From the NCBI GenBank assembly GCA_017461625.1, contig JAFTXJ010000008.1:1-64000 (forward strand): a stretch of DNA of 64,000 bases, in the 5' to 3' direction. This DNA comes from Clostridia bacterium. Lineage in GTDB: Bacteria > Bacillota > Clostridia > Oscillospirales > Acutalibacteraceae. The stretch's first letter is position 1, and each line of letters opens with the position of its first letter. The notes under the pieces are model-generated. The model did no database searches. It had not been told where the DNA came from and worked only from the letters and a program-made list of their open reading frames with translations. Shown in pieces: positions 47,052-63,690 of this stretch. Made by a program: the position numbers and the translations under genes.

Positions 47052-48998
47052 ATGATTAACGTAACATTAAAAGGCGGAGTTGTTAAGGAATACGCCGAAG
47101 GCACTACAGCCCTTGAGGTTGCAAAGAGCCTTGGTATGGGTCTTTACAAGGCTGCCTGCATCTGCAAAATCAATGATGTTTATTGCGATTTGAGAACTCC
47201 TCTTACTGAGGATTGCTCACTTGAAATTCTTTCTTTTGAGGAGGACGAAGAGGCTCAGCGTTGCTTTCGCCACACTGCCTCGCACGTTCTTGCGCAAGCT
47301 GTTAAAAGGCTGTTCCCGCAAGCGAAATTGGCCATTGGCCCTGCTATTGACGGCGGATTTTATTACGACTTTGATGTTGAAAAAGCTTTCTCAACAGAAG
47401 ACCTCGACGCAATCGCCGCAGAAATGAAAAAAATCGTTAAAGAGGCTCTTCCTCTTGAACGTTTTGAGCTTGAACCTGAAGAGGCAATAAAACTTATGGA
47501 AGAAAGAGACGAGCCTTACAAGGTTGAGCTTATCAAAGAGCATGCCGGCAAGGGTGAAAAGATTTCATTCTTCCGTCAGGGTGAATTTGAAGAGCTTTGT
47601 GCAGGTCCTCATATTCCTGACACAGGCAGAATCAAGGCTTTCAAAATTACATCATGCACAGGTGCTTACTGGCGTGGTGACTCAAACAAAAAGATGCTTC
47701 AGAGAATTTATGCAACAGCTTTCACTAAGCAGAGCGTAATGGAAGAGCACCTTGCTGCCCTTGAAGAAGCTAAAAAGCGCGACCACAACAAACTCGGTCG
47801 TGAGCTTGAGCTTTTCACAACTGTTGACTCAATCGGTCAGGGTCTCCCCATTCTTCTTCCTAAGGGAACATTTATTATTCAGACTCTTCAGCGTTTTGTT
47901 GAAGATGAAGAGGCAAGAAGAGGTTGGGTACGCACAAAAACTCCTCTTATGGCTAAGAGCGACCTTTACAAAATCTCAGGCCATTGGGACCATTATAAAG
48001 ACGGTATGTTCGTTCTCGGTGATGAAGAAAAGGACGACGAAGTTTTTGCTCTTCGTCCTATGACTTGTCCTTTCCAGTATCAGGCATACCTCAACAGAGC
48101 AAGGTCTTACCGTGACCTTCCTATGAGATTGGCTGAAACTTCAACTCTTTTCAGAAATGAATCATCAGGCGAAATGCACGGTCTTATCCGTGTTCGTCAG
48201 TTCACAATTTCAGAGGGTCACCTTATGTGCCTTCCCGAGCAGCTTGCAGACGAGTTCAAGCGTTGCCTTGACCTTTGCATCTTTATGCTTAAAACTCTCG
48301 GTCTTTATGAAGATGTATCTTACCGTTTCTCACAGTGGGATCCTGCCGACACAGAGAAATATATCGGCACTCCCGAGCAGTGGGATGAGGCTCAGGGCAT
48401 GATGAAAGAAATTCTTGACGACATCGGTCTTGAATATAAGGTTGGTGTTGGTGAAGCCGCTTTCTACGGACCTAAGCTCGATATTCAGATTAAGAATGTT
48501 TACGGTAAGGAAGATACACTTATCACAATTCAGATTGACCAGATGCTTGCTGAAAAATTCGGTATGGAATACGTTGCAAGCGACGGAACAAAGAAGAATC
48601 CATATATCATCCACAGAACATCAATCGGCTGCTATGAAAGAACACTTGCTCTTCTTATTGAAAAATATGCAGGTGCATTCCCTGTATGGCTTGCGCCTGT
48701 TCAGGTTAAGCTTCTTCCCATTGCTGACAGACATCACGATTATGCTTATGAAATTGCTGCAAAGCTTGAAAAAGCAGGTATCCGTTGTGAGGTTGACACA
48801 AGAAGCGAAAAGACAGGCTACAAAATCCGTGAAGCACAGCTTGAAAAAGTTCCTTATATGCTCCTTATGGGCGATAAGGATATTGAAGCAGGCTCAGTAT
48901 CAGTGCGTAAACGTGGCGAGGGTGACATCGGTGCAGTAAGCGTTGACGAGTTCCTCAAAACAATCCTCGAAGACGTTGATACAAAAGCAATCTGGTAA
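47052..48998 (+). CDS. thrS: threonyl-tRNA synthetase
   Basis: Charges tRNA-Thr and edits mischarged Ser. 648 residues from ATG 47052, behind GGAGG; the open frame upstream runs through the T-box and is rejected. Order: TGS domain (~1-62), editing domain with HTASHVLAQAVKRLFP (HxxxH), the class II catalytic core (motif 2 TSTLFRNESSGEMHGLIRVRQ-type region, motif 3 SIGCYERTLALLIE), and the anticodon-binding domain (PVQVKLLPIADRHHDYA). It is controlled by the threonine T-box upstream. Confidence 0.97.
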   Translation: MINVTLKGGVVKEYAEGTTALEVAKSLGMGLYKAACICKINDVYCDLRTPLTEDCSLEILSFEEDEEAQRCFRHTASHVLAQAVKRLFPQAKLAIGPAIDGGFYYDFDVEKAFSTEDLDAIAAEMKKIVKEALPLERFELEPEEAIKLMEERDEPYKVELIKEHAGKGEKISFFRQGEFEELCAGPHIPDTGRIKAFKITSCTGAYWRGDSNKKMLQRIYATAFTKQSVMEEHLAALEEAKKRDHNKLGRELELFTTVDSIGQGLPILLPKGTFIIQTLQRFVEDEEARRGWVRTKTPLMAKSDLYKISGHWDHYKDGMFVLGDEEKDDEVFALRPMTCPFQYQAYLNRARSYRDLPMRLAETSTLFRNESSGEMHGLIRVRQFTISEGHLMCLPEQLADEFKRCLDLCIFMLKTLGLYEDVSYRFSQWDPADTEKYIGTPEQWDEAQGMMKEILDDIGLEYKVGVGEAAFYGPKLDIQIKNVYGKEDTLITIQIDQMLAEKFGMEYVASDGTKKNPYIIHRTSIGCYERTLALLIEKYAGAFPVWLAPVQVKLLPIADRHHDYAYEIAAKLEKAGIRCEVDTRSEKTGYKIREAQLEKVPYMLLMGDKDIEAGSVSVRKRGEGDIGAVSVDEFLKTILEDVDTKAIW

Positions 48999-49005
48999 AA
49001 AGCGA

Positions 49006-49034
49006 TTGACTTTTAACCATTTGAGTGCTACACT
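49006..49034 (+). promoter_or_regulatory. promoter for the leader-peptide/GNAT transcript
   Basis: TTGACT (49006-49011), 17-nt spacer, TACACT (49029-49034). Confidence 0.75.
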
Positions 49035-49065
49035 CTACAAAAAGCTTGAAAGGCAGGTGGACAAA

Positions 49066-49122
49066 ATGACAATGATGATTAGCACAATGAATCGGAGAGC
49101 CCTTTTGTCCGTTTGCGATTGA
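49066..49122 (+). CDS. 18-residue leader peptide
   Basis: ATG 49066 to TGA 49120-49122 encodes MTMMISTMNRRALLSVCD, with AGGTGG 6 nt upstream. It lies between a promoter and an intrinsic terminator, and its codons CGG-AGA-GCC form one arm of a possible antiterminator. The peptide has no evident enzymatic role; its translation probably senses ribosome state, as in ribosome-mediated attenuation of antibiotic-resistance genes. It is Met-rich at the start and ends in LLSVCD, a plausible stall sequence. Confidence 0.6.
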   Translation: MTMMISTMNRRALLSVCD

Positions 49123-49183
49123 TGTGATTTATATCTTTCTGTGAATTGCAGGCATCTCCGTTTCGGAGATGCCTTTATTTTTT
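49093..49183 (+). promoter_or_regulatory. attenuator: terminator with competing antiterminator
   Basis: The terminator stem AGGCATCTCCG / CGGAGATGCCT (49150-49174) is followed by TTATTTTTT. CGGAGAGCC (49093-49101, inside the leader ORF) can pair with GGC-A-TCTCCG (49151-49160, one bulged A) and exclude the terminator. GCGATT (49115-49120) can also pair with AATTGC (49144-49149). The tandem-GNAT start is at 49201. Confidence 0.7.
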
Positions 49184-49200
49184 ACAGAAAGGGATTTTAA

Positions 49201-50448
49201 ATGTTTAAAATTAAAATTTTAGAAAAAGAAACCGTTCCGTTTGTCTGTGAGATTATGTGTGAACCTAATAATGTTTCTGCTTTACACACAAACACAATTT
49301 CATTAGAAGAATGGAAAAACATTTTTGAAAGAGCCGAATATGATACAGACGAAGAAAATTATATTGTATACCAAAATGATACACCGTGTTGTTGGCTAAA
49401 AATTAATGGATTGCAAAATAAATACACTGCTTGGATTTCAATGCTTGTTGTTTCCGAGAGATTCAAGCATCAGGGTGTTGGAAAATTTGCTGTAGAGTTT
49501 GCGATTGAATATCTTGCGAAACGAGGATATCAACATATAAACCTACAAACAACAGCAGATAATCTATCGGCAATAAGACTTTATGAAAAAAGTGGGTTTA
49601 GATTAATCGAAAACAAGGAAGACAAACTAACTTTCAGAATAACTTTAAACAATCTGACTTTCACAAATATTACAAAAGAAAACATATGCAATTACAAAAA
49701 ACTCCGCAAAATCTATGCGAAGTATAAGATTAAGTCCTTGCGCAATCAAGGCGAAATGCCCGGAAACAAGAAGATGTTTTATGTGTTGTTTGACAGCATT
49801 ATTTCAAATTCATCCCGTAGTAATTCTGACTATTTCATCGTTATGGAATCAGCCAAGGAACTCATTGGCTTTGCTTCAATTTCGACATCATCAACCGATG
49901 TGATTGACATTCCGTACAGTTACGGCATTGTTAAGGATTTTTATATTTCTCCCAAACACAGGCGAAAAGGTTATGGCAGAATTCTGAATAATTACATTGA
50001 AAACATCTTCAAGGATAACGAAACAAATACTGTTTTGCTAAGTCCCGACCCGGTAAGCGGAATTGATTTCTGGAAAGCTATGGGGTATTGCGATACGGGT
50101 ATTCATCAAGGGTGGGGAAGACATTTGGTTTATATCAAACATTTAACCAAATGTGAATATTCAATCGAAATTGATAATGCAATATCAGCACTTGTTACGT
50201 CAATAGATTTGATTGGGATAAATCCATATAACAAACCGCAGATAAAAGAGGTTTATGGAGTGTGGAAAGAATATTGCAAAGAAATTAACCAAAAGCCACA
50301 CATAAAAGATATTAAAAATATGGCTTGGAATTCAAGAAAAAGCAGAAATGTCAGTTTTCAGTCATTGTATTATAAGGGGAAAATTATTGGTTTTAAGTAC
50401 AATGCAGATGATGAAATTAACTATGTGTCACCTGAATACAGAAAATAG
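49201..50448 (+). CDS. tandem GNAT acetyltransferase
   Basis: A 415-residue protein with two GNAT domains. Domain 1 (~1-150) has VVSERFKHQGVGKFAVEFA, the acetyl-CoA loop, and LYEKSGFRLIE. Domain 2 (~155-320) has FYISPKHRRKGYGRIL and a terminal WKAMGYCDTG. A ~95-residue C-terminal helical region of unknown type follows. GNATs transfer acetyl groups to small molecules or proteins; some inactivate antibiotics. It sits behind a leader-peptide attenuator, which favours a drug- or translation-stress-responsive role. GAAAGGG precedes the ATG. The substrate is unknown. Confidence 0.82.
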   Translation: MFKIKILEKETVPFVCEIMCEPNNVSALHTNTISLEEWKNIFERAEYDTDEENYIVYQNDTPCCWLKINGLQNKYTAWISMLVVSERFKHQGVGKFAVEFAIEYLAKRGYQHINLQTTADNLSAIRLYEKSGFRLIENKEDKLTFRITLNNLTFTNITKENICNYKKLRKIYAKYKIKSLRNQGEMPGNKKMFYVLFDSIISNSSRSNSDYFIVMESAKELIGFASISTSSTDVIDIPYSYGIVKDFYISPKHRRKGYGRILNNYIENIFKDNETNTVLLSPDPVSGIDFWKAMGYCDTGIHQGWGRHLVYIKHLTKCEYSIEIDNAISALVTSIDLIGINPYNKPQIKEVYGVWKEYCKEINQKPHIKDIKNMAWNSRKSRNVSFQSLYYKGKIIGFKYNADDEINYVSPEYRK

Positions 50449-50459
50449 GATAAAATTGT

Positions 50460-50814
50460 ATGAACCGTCCGTGGTGTGAACTGTCGGAATACGGAAAAAT
50501 TGTTGATGAAGCAATCAATAACATTGAGAAAAAATACGATAAATTAAGGCTTGATAAATACGTAATTATGCCGGACCATATTCATTTGTTGGTCACCATT
50601 TTGCCAAATGAAAGCGGATGCCCAATGAGCGCCCCCCACGATACCGAATATGGTAAATCAGCTTAAAAGATATGTAACCAAGAGAATTGGTTTCCCGGTT
50701 TGGCAGAAATTATATTATGACCACATCATACGTGATGAAGAAGATTACAATATAAAATGGGAATATATTAAAAATAATCCGATAACATGGTTGGATAAAA
50801 ATAAAGAGGTGTAA
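50460..50814 (+). pseudogene. REP-associated tyrosine transposase remnant, copy 1
   Basis: This looks like a Y1/HUH transposase fragment. MPDHIHLLVTILPNES carries the HUH pair. A +1 change in a run of six C's (about 50631-50637) shifts the frame; the continuation reads RYVTKRIGFPVWQKLYYD and the catalytic-Tyr region DHIIRDEEDYN, ending at TAA 50812-50814. The N-terminal third is missing: homology to copy 2 begins at the right end of a REP (CCGTCCG). It immediately precedes the next GNAT gene, whose GAGGTG site it contains. It is inactive as it stands. Confidence 0.8.
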
Positions 50815-50817
50815 TAT

Positions 50818-51333
50818 ATGAAAGGTGGATTAAAACACATAGAGTTTGTCCGGATGAAAGAAGACGAATTTAAAATTTATTCAAAATGGTCTGTAAAGGC
50901 TTATGCCGAGCATCTGATAAAATCGGGCGATGAAAGATTTATGTGGAAAGCAAAAAAAGAGGCAAAGGCGGAGTTTAATGATATTTTCCCTGAAGGTGCT
51001 GACTCTGCCGATAACTACCTTTATGTTGTTGTGAATGAAAAGGGTGAAAAAATCGGAGTTATCGGGTATCAGAAAAGTCCTTTTGAAGAAAACGCAGCTT
51101 TTGTAACCGAGAATGTGATAAAAGAAGAATACAGAGGAAAAGGCTACGGTAAAAGTGCTTTTGTGAAGATTCAGGAAGATGCAAAAGAAAAAGGCTTTTC
51201 AAAAATGGTGCTGAACGTTTTTAAACATACACCGGTTTCCTATGCGATGTATGAGAAAAACGGGTTCAAAGTAGTTGAGGACCACGGCGGAAGTGCAATA
51301 ATGGAGAAGTATTTTGACAGCGAAAGCAAATAG
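50818..51333 (+). CDS. GNAT acetyltransferase
   Basis: A 171-residue single-domain GNAT. Core motif A is VIKEEYRGKGYGKSAFVKI, the acetyl-CoA pyrophosphate loop, with motif B-like MYEKNGFKVVED near the end. The N-terminal helical part (ELL..KWSVKAYAEHLIKSG) is typical of small-molecule acetyltransferases. GAGGTG precedes the ATG at 50818. Its substrate is unknown. The following P-loop gene starts 25 nt downstream, so they are probably co-transcribed. Confidence 0.88.
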   Translation: MKGGLKHIEFVRMKEDEFKIYSKWSVKAYAEHLIKSGDERFMWKAKKEAKAEFNDIFPEGADSADNYLYVVVNEKGEKIGVIGYQKSPFEENAAFVTENVIKEEYRGKGYGKSAFVKIQEDAKEKGFSKMVLNVFKHTPVSYAMYEKNGFKVVEDHGGSAIMEKYFDSESK

Positions 51334-51358
51334 CTTTTGTGAAAGTGATAGGGTTAAA

Positions 51359-51862
51359 ATGAACAAAGTTATCATAATCGGTTGCCCCGGTTCGGGGAAA
51401 ACCACTTTTGCCGAAAAACTTAATAAGCTAACCGGCTTGCCGTTATATCACCTTGATGCAATCTGGCATAAGCCTGACAAAACTCATATTCCGAGAGAAG
51501 AATTTGACCAAAGAATATCGGAGGTTTTTGCAACCGACAGTTGGATAATTGACGGCAATTATAACCGAACAATTGAAATGCGTCTTAAAGAATGTGACAC
51601 GGTTTTTCTCTTTGATTTGCCGACAGAAGTTTGTCTGCAGGGTGCAACCGAACGCCTCGGAAAAGGTCGCTATGACTTACCGTGGATTGAAACAGAATTA
51701 GACCCTGAATTTGAAGGGTTTATTAAGGATTTTGCAAAAACATCTTTACCGAGAATATATGAGCTGATAGAAAAATACAAAGAAGAAAAACAAGTTATAA
51801 TATTCAAATCAAGAAATGAAACTGACGAATATCTGAATAAACTGTCAGTTATACTGTTTTGA
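51359..51862 (+). CDS. P-loop kinase, FlaR/adenylate-kinase-like
   Basis: A 167-residue small P-loop NTPase. Walker A IIGCPGSGKTTFAEKL is at the N-terminus, followed by LYHLDAIWHKPDKTHI, WIIDGNYNRTIEMRL and the lid-like ATERLGKGRYDLPW. This arrangement matches the DNA-topology-modulation/FlaR-like family of adenylate-kinase-related proteins; its cellular substrate is unclear. The start is ATG 51359; the longer frame overlapping the upstream gene is rejected. Confidence 0.8.
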   Translation: MNKVIIIGCPGSGKTTFAEKLNKLTGLPLYHLDAIWHKPDKTHIPREEFDQRISEVFATDSWIIDGNYNRTIEMRLKECDTVFLFDLPTEVCLQGATERLGKGRYDLPWIETELDPEFEGFIKDFAKTSLPRIYELIEKYKEEKQVIIFKSRNETDEYLNKLSVILF

Positions 51863-63614: not shown

Positions 63615-63690
63615 CCGGGTGTGGCGCAGCTGGTAGCGCGCTTGACTGGGGGTCAAGAGGCCGTGAGTTCAAGTCTCGCCACTCGGACCA
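63615..63690 (+). tRNA. tRNA-Pro (GGG)
   Basis: A full cloverleaf: acceptor CCGGGTG / CACTCGG (one G-U), D-arm GCGC / GCGC, anticodon stem CTTGA / TCAAG with loop CTGGGGG (anticodon GGG, 63648-63650), T-arm GTGAG / CTCGC with loop TTCAAGT. CCA is encoded at 63688-63690. Confidence 0.97.

Follow-up and report, generated by a model that had tools for sequence, protein, structure and literature searches.

In the amino-acid leader attenuators (trp, his and thr), competing hairpins are governed by the place of the ribosome on the leader. The leader that we describe here lies between thrS and a tandem GNAT acetyltransferase gene, in a 64,000-nucleotide stretch of DNA from a Clostridia bacterium (the window). 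It shares the competing hairpins but has no run of a single regulatory codon and no cognate biosynthetic operon, and an amino-acid leader peptide was rejected on these grounds.

The logic of the leader is of the type known from cplR. The sections of the cplR study drawn on here describe a uORF attenuator of an ARE-ABCF gene in C. difficile, related uORFs at vmlR, vmlR2 and lsaA, and mutants in which transcriptional and translational attenuation act together (PMC10201436). As predicted for the window leader, a 5′ hairpin sequesters the cplR uORF and a stall on the uORF lets an antiterminator form; the cplR terminator hides the Shine-Dalgarno sequence of the cargo (PMC10201436), much as a helix around the terminator (P3) would hide the cargo ribosome site here. 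In the same sections the cplR uORF is MR[I/M] and the cargo is ARE-ABCF (PMC10201436), whereas the present leaders are 16–35 codons long, their conserved end supplies the 3′ strand of another helix (P1), and one core is common to unrelated genes, mainly GNATs plus other families. We rejected the ARE-ABCF attenuator class for the window locus because its cargo is a tandem GNAT and not an ABC-F gene; ABC transporters are the cargo at 4 of 59 loci.

Two other described systems are similar in part. The toiL uORF of E. coli topAI-yjhQ, in the portion of the paper used here, senses several antibiotic classes by stalling, at the start codon with tetracycline and retapamulin and later with others, and so opens a hidden ribosome site; it differs in acting through translation and Rho with no intrinsic terminator, and is described for one locus (PMC12121999). 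The ‘mobile attenuators’ of the Naville and Gautheret survey, again as the consulted part presents them, are likewise related attenuator sequences before unrelated genes, but they are terminators borne by insertion sequences (PMC2965389), whereas here the leader ORF is conserved. At the window locus, one weak Y1_Tnp match lies downstream of the cargo.

We consider it probable that the window leader is a ribosome-controlled attenuator acting on both the transcription and the translation of the GNAT gene. The class of mechanism is known; the family appears to be new and modular, its RNA core, cargo breadth and mosaic make-up not having been found in our searches of the open PMC literature. To judge from listings and the openings of abstracts, no paper there was recognised as being on this leader family, and a search of the same literature with the peptide motif found nothing.

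The locus between thrS and the GNAT gene

All features lie on the forward strand. The thrS stop codon ends at 48998, the leader follows directly and the GNAT gene comes next. The putative promoter of the leader transcript (49006–49034) consists of TTGACT, 17 nt and TACACT with an extended −10 TG, and matches the consensus at 9 of 12 positions besides the TG. Promoter-like sites around the locus are at chance level (8 found, 11.1 expected from shuffles), and the call is therefore based on position and on likeness to the promoter at the same thrS-proximal site of genome G005 (55-nt identity 0.84). The leader ribosome site, AGGTGG, stands five bases 5′ of the ATG, and the 18-codon ORF with its stop (MTMMISTMNRRALLSVCD) occupies 49066–49122.

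The RNA can pair in four ways. In P1, the 5′ strand GCAGGTGGACAAAA (49053–49066), which holds the leader ribosome site and the first base of the start codon, pairs with TTTTGTCCGTTTGC (49103–49116) at the end of the ORF. In the antiterminator, CGGAGAGCC (49093–49101, codons 10–12) pairs with GGCATCTCCG (49151–49160) via one bulged base, a duplex of −15.2 kcal/mol. The latter strand doubles as the 5′ arm of the intrinsic terminator (49150–49174; 11 bp, a 3-nt loop and a T-rich tail). In P3, TCTTTCTGTGAA (49134–49145), after the leader stop, pairs with 49181–49192 at −15.5 kcal/mol and encloses the terminator; its 3′ strand carries the GNAT ribosome-binding site (AGAAAGGG, 49181–49193). P3 and the antiterminator are mutually exclusive because the antiterminator loop would contain the 5′ strand of P3 but not its 3′ strand. 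The cargo (49201–50448) encodes 415 aa with two Acetyltransf_1 stretches in the Pfam scan (E 2.9e-28).

The first-pass annotation, made from the letters alone, had listed a promoter, an 18-codon ORF with a good ribosome site, a terminator and the pairing of codons 10–12 with the terminator arm before a tandem GNAT gene. Each of these is present; the pairings of the two ribosome sites, P1 and P3, were absent from it. The fold of RNA 49066–49200 beats 200 of 200 shuffles (z −4.6), and the arrangement is not a chance one, since the leader is conserved at all six loci encoding relatives of the GNAT found by a protein search of genome_contigs. These loci all come from metagenome-assembled genomes of Clostridia or Oscillospiraceae, five with titles that name the animal gut, and their upstream sequences differ, except that L009 and L014 are alike.

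We weighed two simpler readings of the site behind thrS. One is that a plain promoter and terminator were left behind thrS, with a chance ORF and no regulation. Promoter-like sites are indeed common here, and in genome G009, where a thrS fragment is 99% identical in protein, a similar hairpin with a T tail (GGCATCTCC..GGAGGTGCC) follows thrS with no leader. The conservation of the frame, the antiterminator, P1 and P3 over tens of loci (see below) rules out a chance ORF and makes this reading scarcely credible. The other, threonine attenuation tied to thrS, would suit a leader with two Thr codons directly behind that gene. We reject it as extremely improbable, given that the leader stands at many other sites before unrelated genes, that L013 has no Thr codon, and that among 14 loci of the genus compared only G005 has a leader within 330 nt of thrS (G009 has the hairpin, and the 12 other thrS loci have no leader within that distance). 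A riboswitch or T-box was also rejected: at gathering score the only Rfam match in the window is a tRNA at 63615. At E values up to 10, the region 48950–49250 gave 16 matches, of which one, PyrR, is named cis-regulatory, at 23.5 of 54 bits.

A family of leaders with conserved pairings

A strict pattern search matched 4 of 198 genomes, the window's own among them. A covariance model of the leader (R1; 75 nt, 11 sequences) gave 61 matches, spread over 37 of 398 family genomes; one of the 37, G119, is counted solely on a match (L077) that was later dropped. A second model (R2), built from 59 sequences, gave matches in 18 of 394 genomes of the order, 15 of them outside the family and spread over seven other families. 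Of the 15 leaders read outside the family, 13 have an in-frame LS, L101 has LF and L111 lacks the motif. In a phylum-wide draw of 398 genomes, the own genome was the sole match, and the element looks confined to one order of bacteria, within searches whose filters for large genome sets may miss weak matches. Plasmids and phages gave no match to the leader DNA, viral_contigs none to the exact leader pattern, and plasmids none to the GNAT protein.

The 68 initial matches were reduced to 66 by removing two judged false. One is L081, the own genome's second match, which runs on into a long protein; the other is L077, with a stop after two codons. Leaving L044 (motif LSI) out of the pair counts and removing six loci identical in the compared parts gave 59 leaders; L079, which reaches its contig end before any terminator, is omitted from the 58 loci used for the antiterminator, and the 56 used for P3 also lack L069, whose terminator lies 108 nt away, and L062, where too little sequence is available. 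L069, a degenerate leader that reads on after LP, was retained in the sets of 59 and 58. For the frame test, only identical ORF stretches were removed (57 leaders).

The frame test measures the distance from the ATG to the best TTTTGTCC-like site irrespective of frame. One common frame was found in 56 of the 57 distinct leaders over nine lengths, from 31 to 85 nt; the odd one out, L079, is explained by the end of its contig. Such a shared frame is expected of a translated ORF and not of a bare RNA hairpin, and the leader is best described as a short ORF under selection for its frame and predicted to be translated. The first half of the peptide is variable and its end is [AV][VI]LS[VA] in most leaders. 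Between the start and the VLS motif the leaders have 703 residues in total, 10.8% of them methionine; counting the start, at least two in-frame ATG codons are present in 49 of 59 leaders. Divergent ends occur in L070 (EILSVSCL), L073 (VIVSASC), L080 (VIMSASC) and L114 (VIVSASVC), the first three of which precede ABC transporter genes.

For the antiterminator, the segment 5′ of TTTTGTCC was paired with the terminator arm of its own locus. Over 58 loci the summed energy is −753.7 kcal/mol, against a permuted mean of −539 (sd 19), and none of 5000 permutations reaches it. With one locus for each of 16 arm clusters, the values are −186.5 against −117 (sd 11), reached by none of 20 000 permutations, and the own pairing exceeds the mean of the others in 12 of the 16 representatives and is the best in six. 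The strands vary between subfamilies while the pairing is kept (GGAGAGCC/GGCATCTCC; CGAAGTGCC/GGCATCTTCG; TGAAATCAG..TACC/GCGTTTCTGATTTCA; AAATCAGA/TCTGATTT). Ranked against the arms of all loci, the own arm comes first for the leader segment in just 10 of 58, which is due in part to the likeness of related arms. When the arm was slid along the leader, the best partner lay elsewhere in 25 of 58 loci: 7–13 nt downstream in 11, 7 nt upstream in L070, 25 nt downstream in L063, and 39–56 nt upstream, near the leader ribosome site, in the remaining 12. In L063 the antiterminator is almost missing (−3.9 kcal/mol). Conservation of the ORF frame and of this pairing had been named beforehand among the points on which ribosome-mediated attenuation could fail, and both are borne out. 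From sequence comparison, an intrinsic terminator with a mutually exclusive antiterminator is thus predicted across the family.

P1 would sequester the start of the leader ORF in a 5′ hairpin. In the 59 leaders, 98.2% of the alignment cells in P1 are paired, against 94.9% in shuffles (reached by 0 of 500), and 14 cells are changed on both sides, against 2.1; these numbers come from an alignment fitted to the structure and are inflated by relatedness. An ungapped count anchored on the ATG and the LS codons gives 737 paired cells, against 723 (sd 4.8) with permuted partners, a value reached by 8 of 2000 permutations. The helix is mostly invariant, and the number of pairs with change on both sides, three, is not unusual (40 of 500 shuffles have at least as many). 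In L080 a U-A pair takes the place of the usual A-U, and in L112, by eye, U-A replaces the usual C-G, next to one mismatch.

P3 would hide the cargo ribosome site in the OFF state. Over 56 loci the own pairing sums to −598.9, against a permuted mean of −499.4 (sd 19.8), and beats 5000 of 5000 permutations; with 30 representatives, 9 of 20 000 permutations reach it. The helix has −8 kcal/mol or better in 36 of the 56 loci and is weaker in 20, and its paired strand contains a ribosome-site-like motif in 37 of 56.

Ribosome position and the predicted switch

We modelled the folding of the nascent RNA up to the terminator loop with a ribosome footprint placed at different codons. In the window, with no ribosome, P1 has 12.8 pairs and the antiterminator 0.1. 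With the footprint at the start codon, the antiterminator has 10.2 pairs; at codon 4, 8.8; at codons 6–16, 0.0; and at the stop codon, 8.4. Across the 58 loci, at least five antiterminator pairs form in 56 when the start codon is occupied, in 40 when the stop codon is, and in 22 on a ribosome-free leader, so P1 is not a good lock everywhere; with a ribosome over the antiterminator the count is 0 of 58, by construction. Once the window RNA is complete, the equilibrium favours the terminator and P3 for every ribosome position tried, which means that antitermination would have to be kinetic.

The models suggest the following switch. When no ribosome is on the leader, P1 would form, the antiterminator would be excluded and transcription would stop at the terminator; leaked transcripts would be kept untranslated by P3. 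A ribosome traversing the middle of the ORF would cover the antiterminator strand, and the terminator would form again. A ribosome held at the first few codons would cover the 5′ strand of P1 and leave the antiterminator free while the polymerase copies the terminator, giving read-through, and the conflict of the antiterminator with P3 would free the cargo ribosome site. Holding the ribosome at the stop codon would act in much the same way, though less generally. The signal is likely to be an impairment of translation, whether a slowing or a block, such as that imposed by inhibitors which trap ribosomes at start codons. The first-pass annotation had proposed ribosome-mediated attenuation with early stalling as the ON state, which the start-codon footprints support in the model; early stalling is the better supported ON state, and a stop-codon stall may be a second one. 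Ribosome occupancy in the cell, the inducer and a role of the acetyltransferase in detoxification are all presumed in this scheme.

A nascent-peptide arrest would place the decisive stall at the other end of the ORF: the C-terminus [AV][VI]LS[VA] would halt the ribosome at or near the stop codon with a ligand or drug, masking the 3′ strand of P1 and leaving the antiterminator free. The L and the S are each retained in 57 of 59 leaders, L112 by eye keeping its Leu via TTA instead of TTG. Moreover, 52 of 58 loci have the 3′ end of the antiterminator 16–21 nt ahead of the leader stop, a position that a ribosome on the stop codon would narrowly leave uncovered; the footprint of such a ribosome frees the antiterminator at the 40 loci given above. 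TTG is preceded by an NTT codon, and TCC followed by one that begins GT or GC (57 of 59 each), but these are the bases expected from ribosome-site pairing alone. Most of the conserved peptide end is explained by the RNA because those bases pair with the ribosome site, and we do not read the conservation of VLSV as demonstrating an arrest peptide. LS is followed by a variable number of codons, 1 to 4 in 58 of 59 leaders and 9 in L069, and in three loci of the KS..VLSA type (L047, L049 and L067) the stop-codon footprint fails to free the antiterminator. We regard arrest as unlikely, if worth keeping in mind, and prefer control by early stalling.

Cargo genes and exchange around the leader core

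Cargo was assigned by Pfam for the scanned loci and by blastp against those for the rest. The 59 non-identical leaders precede 33 GNAT genes (L023 and L069 are weak calls), 20 other genes and six that are unassigned or off the contig. The others comprise four ABC transporters, three histidine phosphatases, two phosphorylase/nucleosidases, two GrpB, two LytTR regulators, two of a 605-aa kind with no family name, and one each of HAD, AAA_18, protein-kinase-like, rhomboid and methyltransferase genes. The non-GNAT cargo thus has ten named families, two of them (AAA_18 and kinase) on weak matches below the Pfam cut-off; the rhomboid gene begins 476 nt from its leader. A TIM-barrel gene follows L044, which is not one of the 59. 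Of 10 cargo proteins scanned outside the family, 7 have an Acetyltransf_1 match; the own genome has 22 such matches in 1.85 Mb. To our knowledge, it is unusual in leader-peptide control for a single attenuator core to precede about a dozen unrelated gene families. The E. coli protein YjhQ, named above with toiL, we take to be a GNAT as well.

The window GNAT combines two parts that are found elsewhere as single genes behind the leader, the first in L029, L052 and L098 and the second in L010, L011 and L036, with identities of 58–83%. It has no NCBIfam match above the cut-off, and among solved chains diamine and N-alpha-acetyltransferases come closest, at E 1.5e-5 or weaker. The best NCBIfam matches of the ABC transporters behind L050 and L070 are MsbA-type exporters.

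Beyond the window cargo lie a second GNAT gene (50818–51333), with DNA that aligns at 88% to a stretch behind thrS in G009, and a P-loop, AAA_18-like gene (51314–51862); the cargo of L048 has a similar weak AAA_18 match. Between the two GNAT genes, from 50460–50666 to about 50812, is a remnant resembling a Y1 (IS200/REP-type) transposase, the first piece of which has a Y1_Tnp Pfam match of 21.9 bits, below the curated cut-off of 23.

Promoters, leaders and cargo appear to combine freely. At the thrS site of G005, the DNA is 94% identical over 2190 aligned bases and the promoter is similar, with a different leader body and a different cargo, a phosphorylase/nucleosidase. Among 48 locus pairs with an upstream identity of at least 0.80, the cargo families differ in 17, and L019 and L022 have an identical leader body with different upstream sequences (0.62) and cargo. 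Where upstream sequence is shared, it often stops about 92 nt short of the leader core. Loci from the same or near species are among the pairs, which are not independent, and control 55-mers taken 700 nt upstream reach 0.80 in 15 of 1891 pairs, so these numbers are descriptive and are not a test.

The mosaics could be read to mean that the conserved core GAAAGGCAGGTGGACAAAATG is primarily the crossover site of a cassette-exchange system, with regulation secondary. The 17 of 48 pairs, L019 and L022, and the end of upstream homology near the core are what such a system would leave, but ordinary homologous recombination at a conserved sequence gives the same mosaics, and the dependence between pairs and the control 55-mers count here too. 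We consider a dedicated crossover site improbable and keep to a primarily regulatory element.

A broader proposal can be put forward tentatively, as one that may well prove wrong: one order would share a plug-in stress-response unit, in which a leader of about 75 nt with a near-invariant core (GAAAGGCAGGTGGACAAAATG ... TTTTGTCC) couples ribosome stalling to any downstream gene. Promoters, leader bodies and cargo (GNATs, phosphatases, nucleosidases, kinases, a methyltransferase and exporters) would be shuffled at the core across genera, some copies also being under a LytTR-type activator. The result would be a common regulon of drug- or metabolite-modifying genes, exchanged at a regulatory element and not at an integron site. 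Bacteria known mainly from metagenomes carry many genes for what look like small-molecule-modifying enzymes, and nothing indicates under which conditions these come into play. If true, the proposal would tie such genes to translation stress through a stall-sensing leader, the leader would mark candidate resistance or detoxification genes by sequence alone, and the inducer could be tested with a single reporter.

Some members of the family carry direct repeats around TTTTGCA/TTGTGCA, mostly within ACACTTTTGCA, 21 bp apart and upstream of the −35 element. They occur upstream of the leader in L024, L031, L071 and L078 (at about −66 and −87 from GAAAGG), and one exact repeat is found in L010, L032, L042, L064 and L068; the window copy is not among the repeat-bearing loci. 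The spacing fits a LytTR-type operator, which we take the repeats to resemble. In L064 and L071 the cargo itself is a LytTR response regulator; L068 and L078 have a homologue downstream.
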